A program made the position numbers and the translations under genes. Shown here one piece after another: positions 1,755-59,703 of a stretch of DNA of 59,703 nucleotides. Location: contig PLUL01000074.1 of NCBI GenBank assembly GCA_003164895.1, forward strand, positions 39,547 through 99,249, in the 5' to 3' direction. The DNA is from Bacteroidota bacterium. GTDB lineage: Bacteria > Bacteroidota > Bacteroidia > Palsa-948. The notes below the pieces were generated by a model. That model was given only the letters and a program-made list of their open reading frames with translations, was not told the DNA's origin and ran no database searches. Position 1 is the stretch's first letter. Each line of letters starts with the position of its first letter.

Positions 1755-2246
1755 ATGGCAGCTAACAATTTCAACACCGACATTCCTGATGCAGTAATTG
1801 CTCAGGTTCTCAGTTCACTTGCAGCAGCAGATGCAGCGCTTGCTCCTTACAAAGTGGCACTTACCGAAGCGCAAAAAAAACATTTGCCCACCATTGGAGA
1901 TGGAACAATTCCGTTTGCCGAAAAAACCGATGCGTTTATGGACAGCGCACCCAAGTACAATCCGCCTTATGTGGATGTAACAGAAACGCACAAGGATTTT
2001 AAAAACTTTCAAAAGATTCATCCCGTAATTCAAAAGCTTGATTCCATTAGAAAAGATGCAAACGATATCAGCATTGCCGCAGGCAGCGATGCGTATGTGC
2101 AATATCTGGCTTATTACAGTTCGGTAGGAAAAGCGGCAGAGCAGGGCGTGCCCGGTGCAAAAACCATTTATGATGAACTGGGCGCACGTTTTCCATCGCG
2201 CACCAAACCAACTCCGCCTCCGGCAGCAGCGCCTCCAACAAAATAG
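1755..2246 (+). CDS. 163-aa protein of unknown function upstream of a 21-bp repeat array
   Basis: No function can be assigned. The protein is soluble, with no signal peptide. It has an N-terminal helical segment (AQVLSSLAAADAALAPYKVALTEAQ), a conserved-looking core LPTIGDGTIPFAEKTDAF, a second core SDAYVQYLAYYSSVG followed by PGAKTIYDELGARFP, and a low-complexity tail TPPPAAAPPTK. From memory, small proteins with the GD-x-x-x-x-F-x-x-K core and the PGAKTIYDEL ending recur in many Bacteroidota and other environmental bacteria, but I know of no assigned role. The stop codon lies inside a 35-bp heptamer block, and an array of exact 21-bp hairpin units follows at once. The second array in this window also directly follows a small unknown gene (58632-59258). 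Confidence 0.85.
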   Translation: MAANNFNTDIPDAVIAQVLSSLAAADAALAPYKVALTEAQKKHLPTIGDGTIPFAEKTDAFMDSAPKYNPPYVDVTETHKDFKNFQKIHPVIQKLDSIRKDANDISIAAGSDAYVQYLAYYSSVGKAAEQGVPGAKTIYDELGARFPSRTKPTPPPAAAPPTK

Positions 2247-9811: not shown

Positions 9812-11455
9812 TTAATCCTGATGATCCCGATTGCCATCGGAGCTTTTGCGTTTTCTGAAACGAACATTGCTCCTGTCTCCGGATGGTTTCTCCGGAGGCG
9901 TACTTTCAGAAGATCGTTCTCTTGAGAAACGGTTATCTGATCGTCTTGGTTCGCCGGTGGCGGAACCTGAATGACTTCTTGGACGCTCGTATCTTTCTCT
10001 TGGAGTAAAGCTTGGACGATCCGAAGAATGTGAAGGTCGGTCATGAGAAGATCTTTCCCGGTTGTAGGAAGGTCGTTCTCTATTGTAAGATGGTCTTTCT
10101 CTTTCGAAGGAAGGTCTTGATTCTGTTTGTCGTGGTTCGGGAGTTGAAGGTGCGTTACCTTTCAGAGTAAGTTTCAATAATACAGCAGCAAGTTGTTCTG
10201 CAGTGAAACCTTCTTTGCAATAATCCGCTACCATGGCATCGAATTTTTCGAGATGACCGGCAGTGACGATTGATTTCAGCTGAGTAAGAAGTTTTACATT
10301 GCTGAGTTCGAGAATTTCTTTTTCTGTAGGAACATTTCCTCTTGCGATCTTCACTTTTGCGTAGCGCTCAATGTCTCTCAGTTTAAAGGAATCATTTCTT
10401 CCTGTAACAAAGCTGAACGCTTTTCCTGTTTTTCCGGCTCTGCCGGTACGACCAATGCGATGCACATAATATTCTGCATCCATCGGAATGTCGTAATTGA
10501 AAACTGCATCCACGTTACTAACGTCAATTCCGCGTGCGGCAACATCCGAAGCAACCAAAATATTTATTCTGCCTAATTTGAAACTTGACAGAACCGAATT
10601 GCGTTGTGCCTGACTAAGGTCTCCGTGAATTGCATCTGCTTTATGTCCCATCGTGCGCATGGTGGCAACCACTTCGTCCACTCTGCGTTTTGTATTGCAG
10701 AACAGCAAAGTTAATTTCAGGTTATGCAGATCCATCAGTGAAGAAACTATTTTAGCACGTGAAGCATGTCCTACTTCAAAATAAATTTGTTCAATAGAAG
10801 TTGCTGTAAGATTTTCGGTTGTAACTTTTACGTGAACCGGATGTTTTTGGAAACGGTGTGCAATATCTAAAATTGGTTTTGGCATTGTCGCAGAAAAGAG
10901 AACGGTTTGTCTTTCAGGAGACATTTTTTTAAGAATGTTTTCAATGTCTTCCCTGAATCCCATATCAAGCATGGTATCTGCTTCATCGAGCACCGCCATT
11001 TTTACTTTCTCGAACGATAATGTTTTACGTTCAAGATGATCCATGATCCTACCGGGAGTTCCAACAATTACGTTCATGCCTCTTCTCAGTTGCATGATCT
11101 GTTCTGACATAGAAGCTCCTCCGTAAATCGCAAGGACATGAATATGTTTTTTGTATTTGGCAAGCTTCTTCAGTTCCAATGCAACTTGTTGTGCAAGTTC
11201 GCGTGTAGGACACATAACGAGCGAGGAAACAAATTTATCTTCCGGCTGAATTAATTCCAGTAGGGGAATTCCGAATGCGGCTGTTTTTCCTGTGCCGGTT
11301 TGTGCCTGACCGATCACATCTTTCCTGTCTAACAGGTGAGGAATAGTTTGCGATTGAATGGGCGATGCCTCGATAAATCCCATGTCGGTGATGGCGTGTT
11401 GCATTTCTTCACTAAGCGAAAGCTCATTGAATTTTAATTTTTTTACTTCTTTCAT
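9812..11455 (-). CDS. DEAD-box ATP-dependent RNA helicase with basic Arg/Ser-rich tail
   Basis: This protein unwinds RNA duplexes, probably in ribosome assembly or cold adaptation. All core motifs are visible: Q-motif region SPIQSQTIPHLL, motif I AQTGTGKT, Ia PTRELAQQ, Ib TPGR, II DEAD, III SAT, V ARGID and VI HRIGRTGR. After the helicase core comes a linker and, for about the last 110 residues, a low-complexity basic tail (RERPSYNRERPSYNRE repeats, then RFRKRKSSDG), as is common in Bacteroidota and RhlE/DeaD-like helicases for RNA binding. The total length is 547 aa. It has its own promoter about 245 nt upstream, a highly structured leader, and a terminator at 9731-9769, so it is a single-gene unit. 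Confidence 0.96.
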   Translation of the reverse strand: MKEVKKLKFNELSLSEEMQHAITDMGFIEASPIQSQTIPHLLDRKDVIGQAQTGTGKTAAFGIPLLELIQPEDKFVSSLVMCPTRELAQQVALELKKLAKYKKHIHVLAIYGGASMSEQIMQLRRGMNVIVGTPGRIMDHLERKTLSFEKVKMAVLDEADTMLDMGFREDIENILKKMSPERQTVLFSATMPKPILDIAHRFQKHPVHVKVTTENLTATSIEQIYFEVGHASRAKIVSSLMDLHNLKLTLLFCNTKRRVDEVVATMRTMGHKADAIHGDLSQAQRNSVLSSFKLGRINILVASDVAARGIDVSNVDAVFNYDIPMDAEYYVHRIGRTGRAGKTGKAFSFVTGRNDSFKLRDIERYAKVKIARGNVPTEKEILELSNVKLLTQLKSIVTAGHLEKFDAMVADYCKEGFTAEQLAAVLLKLTLKGNAPSTPEPRQTESRPSFERERPSYNRERPSYNRERSSHDRPSHSSDRPSFTPRERYERPRSHSGSATGEPRRSDNRFSRERSSESTPPEKPSGDRSNVRFRKRKSSDGNRDHQD

Positions 11456-30776: not shown

Positions 30777-32108
30777 TTACTTCTGCAAAGTATCCGAAAA
30801 ATCAATTACCAATTTATATAATTCTTCAAATTTAGTCAAAGGTAATGTTTCGGGACGGTCGTAGATATCGTGATATGCTTTGATGCCTCCGAGCGTGTAG
30901 ATGTAAAAAGTTTTCACGCCCGCTTCTTCAAAAAAATAATGATCGCTGATACTTGCCTTGCCTCGCGGCTGAACGCTTGGCAGATACTTTTTTTCTTCAT
31001 TGATTTTAACCAGTTCGTCAAATTCTTTTTTGTGTTGCGTGGCGTTAACTACCTTGATTCCTTCATCACCTGTGCCGACAATATCAAAGTTGATTAAAAA
31101 CTTTATTTGATTTATATTAAATAGCTGGTGTTCAACATAATACTTTGAACCAATTAATCCAACTTCTTCTGCACCGAAAGCCATAAAAGCAACGGAATAT
31201 TTGAGAGGATGTTGTGAATAATATCTGGCAAGATTCAAGAGCATCGCGCAGCCACTGGCGTTGTCGTTAGCTCCTGGAAATTCTGCCTCTTCGTCCATCA
31301 TTCCAAGGTGATCGTAATGTGCGGTGAAGACAATAAATGAATCGGGATATTGTGTGCCTCTGATGTAGCCGATTACATTTTGGGATTGGTAGTTGGGGAT
31401 GAATTTACTTTCCACAAAAAAATAAAAATGCTCAAGTTGCTCATGCCAAATTTTATTTTCACAATCAGGCACTAGTAACTCGAATGTGGGAAATGAAGCA
31501 AGAGTTTGCGAGGCATCCCAAGTAAGTTTTTTATTATTGAAAATGACAATTGCTTTTGAGTGATAAGGATTTTGTTTTGCATTTTCAATTAATTTCATTT
31601 GACTTGATTCGCTTACCCCTTTACTGTCAATAACAATTACTTTATCGGAAAAATTATTTTTTTCAAATTCATTAAGATTTTTTTTAGATGACACAACGGA
31701 ACTATCAAACCATATAACTTTATAGTTACCGTATTCTGTATGTGGGGAATTTGGATTTACTAAAATAAAAGAGTCGGTTTCAAAATATTTGTCAATTCCT
31801 CTGAATCCCCAACCGAAGCCCCCGGGAAAAGTATTTACTGGAAAGGAAAATCTTTGATAGAATTCCTTCTCGATGGGCTTTAGACCAATTTTTTCAAATT
31901 GCTTTTTAATGTAATCAGCCGCGATACTATCCCCTTTCATTATATAGCCACGACCATACATGCTCGGAGAAGCAAGAGTGTCAACAATTTGGTGAGCGTA
32001 TTTGAGAACATCATTCTGGCAGTTGGCAGTCAGCAGTTGGCAGTTGGCAAAAATAAATAATGAATAACGAATGAATATCCGATTTGTGATTCGTATTTTT
32101 CGTATCAT
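30777..32108 (-). CDS. Secreted M28-family metallopeptidase
   Basis: This is probably a zinc-dependent aminopeptidase acting outside the cytoplasm. The two-metal site residues are seen in order: TAHYDHLG (His, Asp), PGANDNASG (bridging Asp), AFGAEEVGLIGS (catalytic Glu pair), NFDIVGTGD (Asp) and SISDHYFFEEAG (His). The N terminus is odd: the 35-bp heptamer block at 32017-32051 encodes FANCQLLTANCQ, which makes up much of the weak signal-peptide-like region. A degenerate AT repeat upstream encodes RIFIRYSLFIF. The true start or export signal may therefore differ from the ATG at 32108. It lies 15 nt after the 209-aa gene and 6 nt before rsmI. Confidence 0.9.
   Translation of the reverse strand: MIRKIRITNRIFIRYSLFIFANCQLLTANCQNDVLKYAHQIVDTLASPSMYGRGYIMKGDSIAADYIKKQFEKIGLKPIEKEFYQRFSFPVNTFPGGFGWGFRGIDKYFETDSFILVNPNSPHTEYGNYKVIWFDSSVVSSKKNLNEFEKNNFSDKVIVIDSKGVSESSQMKLIENAKQNPYHSKAIVIFNNKKLTWDASQTLASFPTFELLVPDCENKIWHEQLEHFYFFVESKFIPNYQSQNVIGYIRGTQYPDSFIVFTAHYDHLGMMDEEAEFPGANDNASGCAMLLNLARYYSQHPLKYSVAFMAFGAEEVGLIGSKYYVEHQLFNINQIKFLINFDIVGTGDEGIKVVNATQHKKEFDELVKINEEKKYLPSVQPRGKASISDHYFFEEAGVKTFYIYTLGGIKAYHDIYDRPETLPLTKFEELYKLVIDFSDTLQK
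32017..32051. repeat. Five-heptamer repeat block at the M28 peptidase N terminus
   Basis: The five 7-bp units on the plus strand are TGGCAGT, TGGCAGT, CAGCAGT, TGGCAGT and TGGCAAA, 35 bp in total. Its length and unit design match the blocks at 1304-1338 and 2243-2277, although the unit sequence differs. Confidence 0.8.
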
Positions 32109-43617: not shown

Positions 43618-44574
43618 TCACAAATTGTAATTTTTAAAAAAGGTACGATTGATAAGAAATGATAATTCCTGTACAGATTGATTAAGTATACTAATTCTGG
43701 GTATTATTTTTTGCTTGGTTTTTAAATAGTCCTGTTGTGAAGGTAAAGGCATTGGATTATTGGTGTAAACGTAATTAATGCCTGATTTAAAAGCTATTTC
43801 AATAGTTTCTTTATTGTAATGCACTTTCTTTCCAAAAGGAATTGAAAAATGTTTTGAATCTATTCCAAAATTATTTTTTATAAAACTTACATTTTCACAT
43901 ATCTCATTTTTAATTTCATTATGATTGCATTTAGAAAGTATAAAATGATTTACACTATGATTTTCTATTTTAACTCCTTTTGATAACAAGAAATTTATAT
44001 CATTAATATCAAGATATATTTTATTTTTATTTATTGGAACATAATGCTCTATCTGCGAAATTAAATAGGACGAAAAGAACGTAGATATATACTCATAGGG
44101 AGAGGTAATAAAAGATTCGTAATTAATTAAATTATTACTCATTTCTTTAACAATGGGGAATATTGCATTTTTAAATGCAGAGTTGGTTAAATTTAACTTA
44201 ATATCAGAGACCCATAATCTATTATGTTCTACTGCATTTTTATTTATAAAGACCGTAAATGGAATATTTTGAGTACTTAATAGAGGATAAGCAATTTCTT
44301 TCGTAGAATAAAACCCATCGTCAAAAACAATGCTTGCATAATTTTTGTTTTTTGTTAAGTCATCATTAACTATTTGATCCAATGAAATAAATTCAAAATA
44401 TTTTTTAAGAAATACAATATATGTTTTAAAATTATTAATTTCTGTAGTATATATAGGGGAATATAAAATGGAGTTCTTATCGGAAATATTATGATATAAA
44501 AAAATGAATCTATTGTTTTTTGAATATTTAAAAAAGGGGAGTAATGCAATACTTTTTTTTAAAAAAATCTTCAT
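43618..44574 (-). CDS. Polysaccharide deacetylase (NodB homology, CE4)
   Basis: This enzyme would remove acetyl groups from N-acetyl sugars of the glycan. The metal/catalytic motifs are visible: ASIVFDDGFYST (the DD of motif 1), NHSVNHFILS (H-S-x2-N-H, motif 2) and HFSIPFGKKVHYN (motif 3 area). It is 318 aa without a clear cleavable signal; the N terminus (KKSIALLPFF) is only weakly hydrophobic. It is strongly AT-rich, like its neighbours. Confidence 0.87.
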   Translation of the reverse strand: MKIFLKKSIALLPFFKYSKNNRFIFLYHNISDKNSILYSPIYTTEINNFKTYIVFLKKYFEFISLDQIVNDDLTKNKNYASIVFDDGFYSTKEIAYPLLSTQNIPFTVFINKNAVEHNRLWVSDIKLNLTNSAFKNAIFPIVKEMSNNLINYESFITSPYEYISTFFSSYLISQIEHYVPINKNKIYLDINDINFLLSKGVKIENHSVNHFILSKCNHNEIKNEICENVSFIKNNFGIDSKHFSIPFGKKVHYNKETIEIAFKSGINYVYTNNPMPLPSQQDYLKTKQKIIPRISILNQSVQELSFLINRTFFKNYNL

Positions 44575-56055: not shown

Positions 56056-57291
56056 TTATTCTGAAACTTTCCAAGTAATATTAGGTATAAAGAACTTATT
56101 AATGCGTTTGTCAGGTATGTCCCTAAACGTATTTTGTTTTAATGGCTCAACAATGATTTGGAAGCACTCCCGATGAGTTTCAAAGTCTTTAATACCATCC
56201 CCTAAATAAATATCAATATGATAAATACCTTCAAAAAATGTAAGATGTGGTATTGTCATAGAAATATAACTTTTCGTAACAGCTTTATTTGTTAGGTTAT
56301 TAGCGTAATGCCTGTTGTTAATGCCGATCAATGGTGTATTGGTGTGATCTTTGAAAACTAATCCAAGTACAGGAAAGTTAATAGGTGAGGGAGAATCAAA
56401 GTAGACTCTTATCTCAAGTTTGCACCCCATATAAGTTATGGGGGAGATTTTATCGTCACATAATATTTCAATTCGTTTTATAATGCTTTTATTTTTTTGA
56501 GAATCCCATTCAATTGTTCCTGAATTTTTTTGAGAGGTATGATCAAGCAATTCTCTATACTTGTCAATGATCTGAGATGTTGTTCCTATATTATTTACAT
56601 TACCCTTGTTTAGAAAAACTGCTTTTGAACATAATGTTTCAACTGCGGACATATTATGGCTGACAAAAATGATAGTCCTGCCGCTTTTTGCGACCTCATT
56701 CATTTTTCCCATACATTTATTTTGAAACTCAGCATCTCCTACTGCCAACACTTCATCAATCAATAATATTTCTGGTTCAAGAAAGGCTGCTACCGCGAAT
56801 GCCAGGCGCAATTGCATTCCGCTGGAATAATGTTTGAGAGGTGTGTCTAAGAATTTTTCCACTCCGCTAAAGTCAACAATCTCATCAAACTTATTTTGAA
56901 TTTCTTTTCTTTTCATGCCAAGAATAGATCCATTCAAAAAAATATTTTCTCTGCCTGTGAGTTCTGGGTGAAAACCAGTGCCCACTTCCAATAAGCTTGC
57001 AATTCTTCCACGTGAAATTATTTTGCCAGAAGTAGGGGGGGTTATCTTTGAAAGTATCTTTAAAAGAGTTGATTTTCCTGCTCCGTTCTTGCCAATGATG
57101 CCGATGGATTCACCGGGATATACATCAAAGGAAACATCTTTGAGAGCCCAGAAATCTTCGTCCCCCTCCTTATCTCCCCATGGGGAGGACAAAAAACCGC
57201 TTATGCTATCGCGCAAACTTAAATAAGGATGTTGTTCGTGCTGAATACGAAATTTTTTGGAAATATTTTTTATTTCTAATATCGGTTTCAT
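56056..57291 (-). CDS. wzt: Polysaccharide ABC exporter ATP-binding protein with C-terminal binding domain
   Basis: This is the ATPase of a Wzm/Wzt-type exporter, 411 aa. Walker A GKNGAGKST is at residues 67-75, the signature is YSSGMQLRLAFAVA and Walker B is ILLIDEVLAVGD. After about residue 260 a beta-rich domain follows (IEWDSQKNKSIIKRIEIL to the end), of the Wzt_C type that recognises the finished glycan's terminal group. A palindromic element (57160-57188) encodes the loop FLSSPWGDKEGDED just before the conserved FWALKDVSF. Its ATG shares one base with the wzm stop. Confidence 0.94.
   Translation of the reverse strand: MKPILEIKNISKKFRIQHEQHPYLSLRDSISGFLSSPWGDKEGDEDFWALKDVSFDVYPGESIGIIGKNGAGKSTLLKILSKITPPTSGKIISRGRIASLLEVGTGFHPELTGRENIFLNGSILGMKRKEIQNKFDEIVDFSGVEKFLDTPLKHYSSGMQLRLAFAVAAFLEPEILLIDEVLAVGDAEFQNKCMGKMNEVAKSGRTIIFVSHNMSAVETLCSKAVFLNKGNVNNIGTTSQIIDKYRELLDHTSQKNSGTIEWDSQKNKSIIKRIEILCDDKISPITYMGCKLEIRVYFDSPSPINFPVLGLVFKDHTNTPLIGINNRHYANNLTNKAVTKSYISMTIPHLTFFEGIYHIDIYLGDGIKDFETHRECFQIIVEPLKQNTFRDIPDKRINKFFIPNITWKVSE
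57160..57188. repeat. CT-rich palindromic element in frame in wzt
   Basis: CTCCCC-AT-GGGGAG (57174-57187) is a perfect 14-nt palindrome with a further CCCCCTCC copy at 57162-57169. It is translated in frame in an N-terminal loop of Wzt, ahead of the ATP-binding core. Confidence 0.7.
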
Positions 57292-58109
57292 CAGGCAAGG
57301 TCAGCAAAATAATATTCTGTTTTTCTGAAATAAAATAAGCCTGCAAAAAATAACAGGATTGAAGATACTGCGCTTGTTATCACCAATTGCAGATCAAGAG
57401 GTGCCTGTGTCACTGAGGAGCGAAGCAGATCAATGGCACCTGCAATGGGATTAAGAGAAAGAATAATTTGTGCCCATTTGTATTTAATAATAGAGACAGG
57501 GTAAATGACCGGAGTGAGAAATAAAAGTATTTGAATAAGAAATGGAATTACATACCTGAAGTCGCGGTACTTTATATTTAACGCGGCAAGCCCTGTACCA
57601 AGCCCGAAAGTGGATAATACAGTAATTAGAATGCCGGCAGGAAGGTAAATGATGATGTTGAAACTTACCGGCTGTTTATAATAAATAAGTATGCCTATGT
57701 AAATGATAAAAGCCATAAGGAAATCAAATAAGGCAACCAAAATGGAAGACATTGGGATTATCAAACGGGGGAAATATATTTTTTTTATAATGCCTGCATT
57801 TGATACCATGCTGCCGGAGGCATTGGATAATCCGGAAGAAAAAATATTCCAAAGCAATAATCCGGAATATACAAAAACAGGGTAGGGGATGTTATTATCT
57901 GTAGGAACTCCAAGCGCCTGTCCGAAGAAGAGTGTGAAAACTATCATCATCATAAATGGCTGAAGTATCGCCCAAAGCACGCCCAATACCGTTTGCTTGT
58001 ATTTTACCTTAATATCTCTCCACGTAAAGAAATAGAACAACTCCCTGAATTCCCAGAGTTCTTTTAATCCAAGAGAAAGTTTGCTGACTGGTTTGATCTC
58101 GTATTCCAT
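57291..58109 (-). CDS. wzm: Polysaccharide ABC exporter permease
   Basis: This is a 272-aa ABC-2 type permease with six hydrophobic segments. Landmarks are FFTWRDIKVKYKQTVLGVLWAILQPFMMMIVFTLFFG at the start (landmark), PYPVFVYSGLLLWNIFSSGLSNASGSMVSNAGIIKKIYFPR and LIQILLFLTPVIYPVS. Together with Wzt it exports the glycan across the inner membrane. It is the first gene of the long leftward unit. The 21-bp repeat array begins 24 bp upstream of its start, so any promoter must lie in or beyond that array; no exact TAnnTTTG was found. Confidence 0.95.
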   Translation of the reverse strand: MEYEIKPVSKLSLGLKELWEFRELFYFFTWRDIKVKYKQTVLGVLWAILQPFMMMIVFTLFFGQALGVPTDNNIPYPVFVYSGLLLWNIFSSGLSNASGSMVSNAGIIKKIYFPRLIIPMSSILVALFDFLMAFIIYIGILIYYKQPVSFNIIIYLPAGILITVLSTFGLGTGLAALNIKYRDFRYVIPFLIQILLFLTPVIYPVSIIKYKWAQIILSLNPIAGAIDLLRSSVTQAPLDLQLVITSAVSSILLFFAGLFYFRKTEYYFADLA

Positions 58110-58133: not shown

Positions 58134-58553
58134 ATTCTTGTTCACTATCGTTACATTCTTTCACGCTATTATTACATTGTTTAGCACAACGGTTGCATTC
58201 TTAATCGCTATGGTTCCATTGCGAACAAGTTTGGTTACATTCTTATTCACTACGGTTCCCTTGCGAACAAGTTTGGTTCCATTCTTAATCGCTACCGTTC
58301 CATTGCGAACGAGTTTGGTTCCATTCTTAATCGCTACTGTTCCATAGCGAACAAGTTTGGTTATATTCTTATCCGCTATCGTTCCATTGCAAGCAAGTTT
58401 GGTTCCATTCTTAATCGCTATCGTTCCATTGCGAACAAGTTTGGTTCTATTCTTATTCACTATCGTTTCATTGCGAGCAAGTTTGGTTCCATTCTTAATC
58501 GCTACCGTTCCATTGTGAACAAGTTTGGTTCGGTTGCGAGTAATTATGCTTAT
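58134..58553. repeat. Array of 20 exact 21-bp units (alternating two unit types)
   Basis: Counting from 58134, 20 units of exactly 21 bp follow with no indel. Plus-strand units begin ATTCTTAATCGCTA or ATTGCGAACAAGTTTGG and most end in GTTCC, so from the fourth unit on the two types alternate and give a 42-bp higher-order repeat; the first three units are more divergent. Hairpins such as GTTC-CATTGC-GAAC span unit borders, and GAAC-AAGTTTG-GTTC lies within the second type. The array lies between the wzm start and the terminator of the 208-aa gene. Frames stay open because 21 is a multiple of three, but nothing else suggests translation. Confidence 0.92.
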
Positions 58554-58566
58554 GCGGAAAAGAAAT

Positions 58567-58600
58567 AAAAAAGGATCCGGGAGTTTTATCTCCCGAATCC
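58567..58600 (-). terminator. Rho-independent terminator of the 208-aa gene
   Basis: The arms GGATCCGGGAG (58573-58583) and CTCCCGAATCC (58590-58600) pair over 11 bp with one G-U wobble. In the minus-strand sense a T-run follows (58572-58567). It separates the 208-aa gene from the downstream 21-bp array. Confidence 0.85.
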
Positions 58601-58631
58601 CTCTTTATCGTTGCGGATTCTTAGTTTGAGT

Positions 58632-59258
58632 TTATTGAACTTTTACTTTTATCCATTCGCACCAGTCGCCTTCAACATCGTTCTTGAGTATCGGGCGGTT
58701 ACGGAAAAACCAAATGTCGCCCTCGGTTAAATTACTCACTTTGGTTTTTGCCTTGCTGGTGGCTGGCAGGTTGGTAATGGCAACCTGGTCTTTGCTCATC
58801 TGCCATTCGTGAGGTCCGCCTCCTTCGGCAGTTACAATAATAATACCCGATACATCGCCGTTATATGCATCGTTCACTCTTTTTTGTCGAATGGAAATTG
58901 CTTTCACATTCATACCCGCGCTTTTAGCAAGCACTTCGGCTTGTGCCGGAGTTGCATCTGCCACCACTTGCACATCGTTTCGCAACGAGCGAATGTCGGC
59001 TTTGACTTGTTCCATTACCGCATTCCGTGCTTCCACAGTGGAAGTAGGCGGATTGGTTAACAATCCTGATTCGGAGGAATCAAGCGTGTCAATATCCGTT
59101 TTCAGCGAAGTAACTTTTGCTGCCGAATTTAGAAAGTTGCTGTTTCCGTTCATCGCCTCATAAATGCCCTTGGCATAGGTGAGGAAATCGTTGATCTTGG
59201 TTGGGAACATCAGCACTACTATGAGATGCCTGATGATCGCTTTAATTGAGTTTTTCAC
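58632..59258 (-). CDS. 208-aa protein of unknown function with fibronectin-III-like C-terminal part
   Basis: No function is assigned. The N-terminal half is helical (KINDFLTYAKGIYEAMNGN, then ARNAVMEQVKADIRSLRNDV, then PAQAEVLAKSAGMNVKAI). The C-terminal 80 residues have the look of a fibronectin type III domain: GGPHEWQMSKDQVAITNLPA, KVSNLTEGDIWFFRNRPIL, then GDWCEWIKVKVQ. I recall proteins of this length and order from other Bacteroidota. The start is GTG at 59258 (MKNSIKAII); an internal ATG (MFPTKIND) 17 codons on is an alternative. It is followed by a terminator and then the 20-unit 21-bp array. Confidence 0.82.
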   Translation of the reverse strand: MKNSIKAIIRHLIVVLMFPTKINDFLTYAKGIYEAMNGNSNFLNSAAKVTSLKTDIDTLDSSESGLLTNPPTSTVEARNAVMEQVKADIRSLRNDVQVVADATPAQAEVLAKSAGMNVKAISIRQKRVNDAYNGDVSGIIIVTAEGGGPHEWQMSKDQVAITNLPATSKAKTKVSNLTEGDIWFFRNRPILKNDVEGDWCEWIKVKVQ

Positions 59259-59592: not shown

Positions 59593-59703
59593 ATGAATAA
59601 TTACTTTATAAGAATATGTTGTATTATACTATTTGCAATGTATGCTTTTTTTCCTTCTTTTGGTCAAAGTTCAATTTCTCCTAATCATATTTCCGGATTG
59701 CAA
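59593..59703 (+). CDS. Start of a secreted protein (3' end outside window)
   Basis: Only 37 codons are visible. They read MNNYFIRICCIILFAMYAFF then PSFGQSSISPNHISGLQ. The first 24 residues form a signal peptide with a probable cleavage near FGQ-S. The mature protein is outside the window, so no function can be given. A strong promoter precedes it. Confidence 0.75.
   Translation, partial: MNNYFIRICCIILFAMYAFFPSFGQSSISPNHISGLQ

Follow-up and report, generated by a model that had tools for sequence, protein, structure and literature searches.

Near one end of the stretch of DNA analysed here (hereafter the window; 59,703 nucleotides from a Bacteroidota bacterium), a tandem array of 20 units of exactly 21 bp lies between two genes. 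The units differ by many substitutions and never in length. The question raised by this locus is what kind of repeat this is, and whether it belongs with any of the genes around it. The features needed to follow the argument are these:

58134-58553, no strand: 21-bp phased array of 20 units, with a 42-bp superunit from unit 4 (reading of units and Tandem Repeats Finder, TRF)
57291-58109, minus strand: flanking ABC-2 transporter permease; the array stops just upstream of its start
58564-58609, minus strand: intrinsic terminator in the interval between F1 gene and array, with a 20-pair stem and a T-run
58632-59258, minus strand: partner gene of family F1, 208 aa, with a helical N-terminal domain and an Fn3-like C-terminus (profile, AlphaFold)
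59593-59703, plus strand: start of the divergent flanking gene, which is cut by the window end (site comparison with congeners)
1755-2246, plus strand: partner gene of family F2, 163 aa, with an array 50 bp downstream
2296-2505, no strand: second intergenic array in 21-bp phase, of unrelated sequence, with a 63-bp superunit (3 x 21) (TRF)

The array and its place among known repeats

The original prediction had described 20 indel-free units of 21 bp, of two types that alternate from the fourth unit and form a 42-bp superunit, and our reading of the units agreed with it on each point. Run on the window, a check that had been proposed, TRF recovered the array at 58191-58531 with a period of 42, 8.1 copies, 86% match and 0% indels. 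The all-pairs identity of the units is 0.636 (0.278 ± 0.007 in shuffles), reaching 0.77 within type 1 and 0.87 within type 2 compared with 0.53 between types. Units 1-3 and the last unit match poorly, and the well-matched part of the array is nearer 58134-58532. The inverted repeats expected over the unit borders were likewise found: GTTC-N6-GAAC has six occurrences that keep step with the 42-bp superunit (at 58213, 58255, 58297, 58339, 58423 and 58507), and GAAC-N7-GTTC occurs four times in the array.

Regular intergenic repetition is also a property of CRISPR arrays, but here the units abut with no unique spacers between them, which rules out a CRISPR array, as the prediction had held. No Cas gene is found among the immediate flanking genes, and no Rfam covariance model matches the array. 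It is an intergenic array that is neither CRISPR nor ordinary coding sequence.

Two sister arrays were found in the genome of the window, one 83% identical (G000:C9:155-454, truncated by the contig end) and the other 79% identical (G000:C19:36260-36556). Both adjoin RND-efflux genes, with no gene of the families F1-F5 described below within reach. The genome thereby holds three arrays of related sequence, its other arrays being unrelated, and no relatives were found in 39 other genomes, 6 of them congeners. TRF also reported 21-bp periods at 10046-10118 and 44389-44429, within the minus-strand ORFs 9812-11455 and 43618-44574, and these stretches are probably coding.

Judged by its sequence, the array fits among the non-coding tandem repeats with a constant unit of 20-21 nt and variable sequence described by Subirana and Messeguer (PMC8161180), whose function is unexplained. 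Unit length is constant, sequence differs between arrays and between species, three arrays of related sequence occur in one genome, and the arrays lie outside protein genes, with a weak excess of open frames. Both sets also share the presence of several sequence families per genome and of a short motif common within a species. The published description centres on Bacillus, whereas our arrays are from Bacteroidota, with superunits of 42 or 63 bp, near-zero indels and partner families that keep a conserved side; partner genes are not mentioned there. A scan of our collection for AAYGKAAC repeated three times at 21-bp steps returned more than 115 stretches from many phyla, of which a considerable share is non-coding and has a sequence specific to the species.

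The BrickBuilt minisatellite MITE of Porphyromonas gingivalis (PMC4596501) resembles our arrays in its Bacteroidota host, intergenic location, short tandem units, many copies and dyads. It differs in having a 23-nt unit of one common sequence, leader and tail segments, terminal inverted repeats, target-site duplications and up to 6% indels, and no partner gene family is reported for it in that paper. No terminal inverted repeats frame the window module (the array with its F1 gene), which speaks against a BrickBuilt-type MITE.

Plasmid iterons and centromere repeats are direct repeats that lie next to the gene of a small protein and have a spacing near two helical turns, and both properties are found here. 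Unlike them, our arrays are chromosomal, number many per genome, differ in sequence between close paralogues and have no recognised replication or partition gene nearby.

Arrays stand beside genes of several small-protein families

The array lies downstream of the F1 gene, with 101 bp from the stop codon to the edge of the TRF array. The 208-aa protein belongs to no Pfam, NCBIfam or PADLOC family, although a profile search placed an Fn3 domain at its C-terminus. An AlphaFold model of F1, made with two sequences, was poor (pLDDT 40) and was not used for fold search; it showed helices at the N-terminus. No search found a DNA-binding motif in F1 or F2. F1 has 11 matches in the genome of the window and 29 in one congener, while among three other congeners two have none and the third has weak matches inside one long protein.

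The loci retrieved with this protein contained many 21-bp arrays that differed from one another in sequence. A 21x array lies within 700 bp of the F1 gene in 56 of 73 distinct F1 loci, compared with 29 of 884 other genes (3.3%) in unselected stretches of four carrier genomes; the TRF score cut-off was slightly stricter in this control (70, against 60 at F1 loci), a difference unlikely to have caused the twenty-fold gap. About 8 of the 16 array-less F1 loci checked keep a decayed 21/42-bp signal that rises above 26 other lags. In other genomes of the class, from about 15 genera, 22 of 26 top F1 hits have an array.

Arrays without an F1 partner led us to four further families: F2, with one member in the window beside its own array; F3, 124 aa with a basic tail; F4, about 220-280 aa with an Fn3-like end; and F5, about 300 aa with a CarboxypepD_reg end. 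The seeds of these families were found through adjacency to an array, so only non-seed members count as tests. An array occurs at 7 of 9 non-seed F2 loci, at 7 of 9 full-length F4 loci within the genus and at 4 of 4 independent cyanobacterial F3 loci (plus two seeds), while F5 has too few members for a test. F4 genes from Tannerella, Prevotellaceae, Dysgonamonadaceae and Kapaibacterium genomes have an array in 22 of 30 cases, with the seed among them. Possession of an array somewhere was the ground on which the cyanobacterial and Bacteroidales genomes were selected, but this selection does not explain adjacency gene by gene. No homology was detected among at least four of the partner families, and family models gave no functional name to any of F2-F5. 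AlphaFold predicts for F3 one long helix at residues 31-93. A Thiodictyon plasmid carries an F2 homologue with no array beside it.

With gap lengths matched, a tile-based test gave 10 of 21 against 9 of 235 (p 8e-8). With the F2-F5 seeds included, this figure is in part circular, which does not hold for the F1 tests outside the window. In unselected stretches of the carrier genomes, 10 of 20 arrays had a partner and one more adjoined an F4 remnant. Most arrays found by pattern in other taxa lack F1-F5. Thus, either more partner families exist or arrays also occur alone; clustering of the genes next to the pattern-found arrays of other taxa added no partner family. Genes were called as ORFs throughout. 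In the stretches sampled, carriers have 8-32 non-coding 21x arrays per Mb. Three congeners lacking the partner families had no non-coding 21x array in 317 kb sampled, the only array there being coding by the look of its sequence. Modules are present in the window's own genome (G000) and in G004-G006, and absent from G001-G003. The array and the gene are partners, a conclusion that we hold with high confidence, and together they look like a two-part module.

At the site of the window module, the permease of three congeners (G001, G002 and G004) appears to abut a divergent gene of the kind that starts at 59593, with no module between them. In a fourth (G005), the same site is occupied by an F1 gene that differs from that of the window and is accompanied by an array of its own. 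The module thus comes and goes at a fixed position. The module-less sites of the three congeners are too diverged to fix the junction at which a target-site duplication would be sought.

What is kept and what is let go

The side on which the array lies is family-specific: downstream in 8 of 8 cases for F2, upstream in 5 of 5 for F3 and 8 of 8 for F4, and mixed for F1. The upstream position of F4 arrays also holds in Bacteroidales and Kapaibacterium (21 of 22). Within F1, array side clusters on the gene tree, with 9 and 10 changes against 24.7 and 17.0 after shuffling, and none of 500 shuffles was as low.

Length is kept as well. Across 80 partnered arrays (18,932 bp), TRF alignments contained 3,250 mismatches to the consensus (17%) and 4 indels, all of them deletions in a single array, the latter count being a lower bound because TRF may split arrays at indels. 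These figures accord with the earlier view that the array is not a minisatellite with random length drift. Autocorrelation peaks solely at 21, 42 and 63, with no sub-period of 7 or 10-11 bp.

Sequence, on the other hand, turns over quickly. Close paralogues, with 60-90% identity, mostly have the array on the same side, but their arrays mostly have few or no 9-mers in common, which makes sequence-specific binding by the partner unlikely. Arrays of different Bacteroidota genera have little sequence in common. F3-adjacent arrays from different cyanobacterial genera share the dyad CATT-N3-AATG (L371 2738-2891, L365 1987-2198 and L367 1986-2179). Dyads are also present in the second window array, as CTCAACGTTGAG and TCCTGT..ACAGGA. 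Weaker cyanobacterial homologues of F3 adjoin arrays of 41 bp (L369 1048-1194) and 20 bp (L370 2028-2204), so that the period is not always 21.

On either strand the units show more self-complementarity than shuffled sequence, and paired double changes at dyad partners number 56, against 32 in controls. These changes carry no G-U bias that would mark a sense strand. Intrinsic curvature was rejected as a selected property, the arrays being no more curved than column-permuted ones (z 0.10 ± 0.14). The arrays thus seem to retain a period of two helical turns and a location next to the gene, and to give up their sequence.

Readings of the module

The reading that we favour, tentatively and with a probability of roughly 0.45, is that the array is the cis half of a two-part module, a DNA platform whose 21-bp phase would serve a protein and which would control or hold the partner. 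In this reading, a strictly phased non-coding array, its units two helical turns long, is permanently paired with the gene of a small protein that has a helical N-terminus; spacing, a tendency to dyad symmetry and position relative to the gene are conserved, and the sequence is not. Most likely, the array would place copies of a protein side by side along one helical face. The comparisons show the array itself, its partnership with the gene, the conserved side, the depletion of indels, the turnover of sequence and the lack of consistent coding, and from these we infer protein binding, assembly on site and regulation. The simplest candidates for the bound protein are an oligomer of the partner itself or a regulator of the partner gene. 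In either case, the platform may control the partner gene or keep the gene product at its own locus. Self-complementarity on both strands, the joint changes at dyads and the lack of a G-U bias are easier to reconcile with such a DNA platform than with an RNA of the sense strand. Against this reading count the small overlap in sequence between arrays of close paralogues, the arrays that have no partner, the lack of detected homology among the partner families, curvature no greater than that of permuted arrays and the failure of every search to find a DNA-binding motif in F1 or F2.

An RNA role is rather unlikely. The array could be transcribed as a 5' leader, a 3' trailer or a small RNA, with a string of hairpins that tunes stability or translation. 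Several upstream arrays stop 30-100 bp ahead of the start codon, and bacterial satellites of 52 nt are transcribed (PMC8625621). Moreover, promoter motifs of the Bacteroidota type lie beyond the array at 7 of 46 loci (2.4 expected) and in the gap at 1 of 46 (2.5 expected), which leaves the leader role open. However, folding of the sense strand is no better than that of the antisense strand (z -1.2 vs -1.9), in keeping with the missing G-U bias, a strong terminator separates the F1 gene of the window from its array, and a leader has no need of a strict 21-bp phase.

We also consider it unlikely that array and gene are mobile together and that the array is a recombination site, or a by-product, of a mobility system acting in trans. 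The model for such a role is the attC site, at which integron cassettes recombine. That unrelated partner families carry one common tag leaves a cassette role open, and scattered, numerous copies with a patchy distribution within the genus, the empty or differently occupied site in congeners and the sister arrays away from any F gene all agree with it. Against it stand the lack of terminal inverted repeats around the window module, the fact that array side follows the gene tree and the absence of a recurrent integrase or transposase among the recognised neighbours. Additionally, searches of phage, plasmid and IMG/VR viral contigs found no F1 homologue.

A functionless satellite, made and homogenised by slippage in loose intergenic DNA near fast-evolving genes, would account for the fast turnover of sequence, for the decay of arrays and for those that have no partner. 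It is nevertheless improbable, given the near absence of indels beside 17% mismatches, a single period across two phyla, an enrichment that holds after gap-length matching and the conserved side.

Translation of the 21 bp as seven codons of a heptad-repeat peptide is very improbable. The arrays lack consistent coding, and the slight excess of open frames (77 against 59.4 ± 4.9 in sense and 74 against 62.3 ± 5.3 in antisense) is shared by the two strands; avoidance of TpA may underlie it. Arrays with any open frame number 60 against 56.4 ± 2.8, and in some arrays none of the six frames is free of stops. Indels of 3 bp are likewise absent, and cyanobacteria have arrays with periods of 20 and 41 bp.

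Returning to the DNA platform, the kind of array is already known and the partner gene appears to be the novelty. We put at even odds the broader claim of an undescribed two-part module of Bacteroidota and Cyanobacteriota, in which a non-coding 21-bp array of free sequence is permanently paired with a gene from one of several families of small helical proteins and is read by its spacing and dyads, not by its sequence. If true, the module would account for at least a share of the bacterial satellites of constant size, which were enigmatic in the descriptions of 2020-21, with no partner gene or function given (PMC8161180). Partner families that keep a family-specific side in two phyla turn the question of these satellites into an experimental one, with one named gene and its protein. 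The partnership would, in addition, place in a first context protein families without a Pfam model that reach up to dozens of copies per genome.

A few further repeats were observed around these loci. L233 11700-12048, together with G006:C76:52129-52221, is an array next to a short F4 remnant, and it resembles a module that has kept its array after decay of the gene. Short arrays of 7 bp occur in the window (32017-32049) and at L188 103-139, L193 1187-1245, L212 841-954 and L231 18749-18798, and several of them adjoin F1 genes and 21-bp arrays in the same genomes; 21 is three times 7, yet the 21-bp units have no 7-bp sub-period. Finally, one dispersed element resembling a MITE (ACTTACGC...GTCATTCCGAGCGAAGCGAGGAATCTCC...) seems to be repeated in the vicinity of the F1 loci L200, L202, L213, L214 and L226 of the G006 and G004 genomes.
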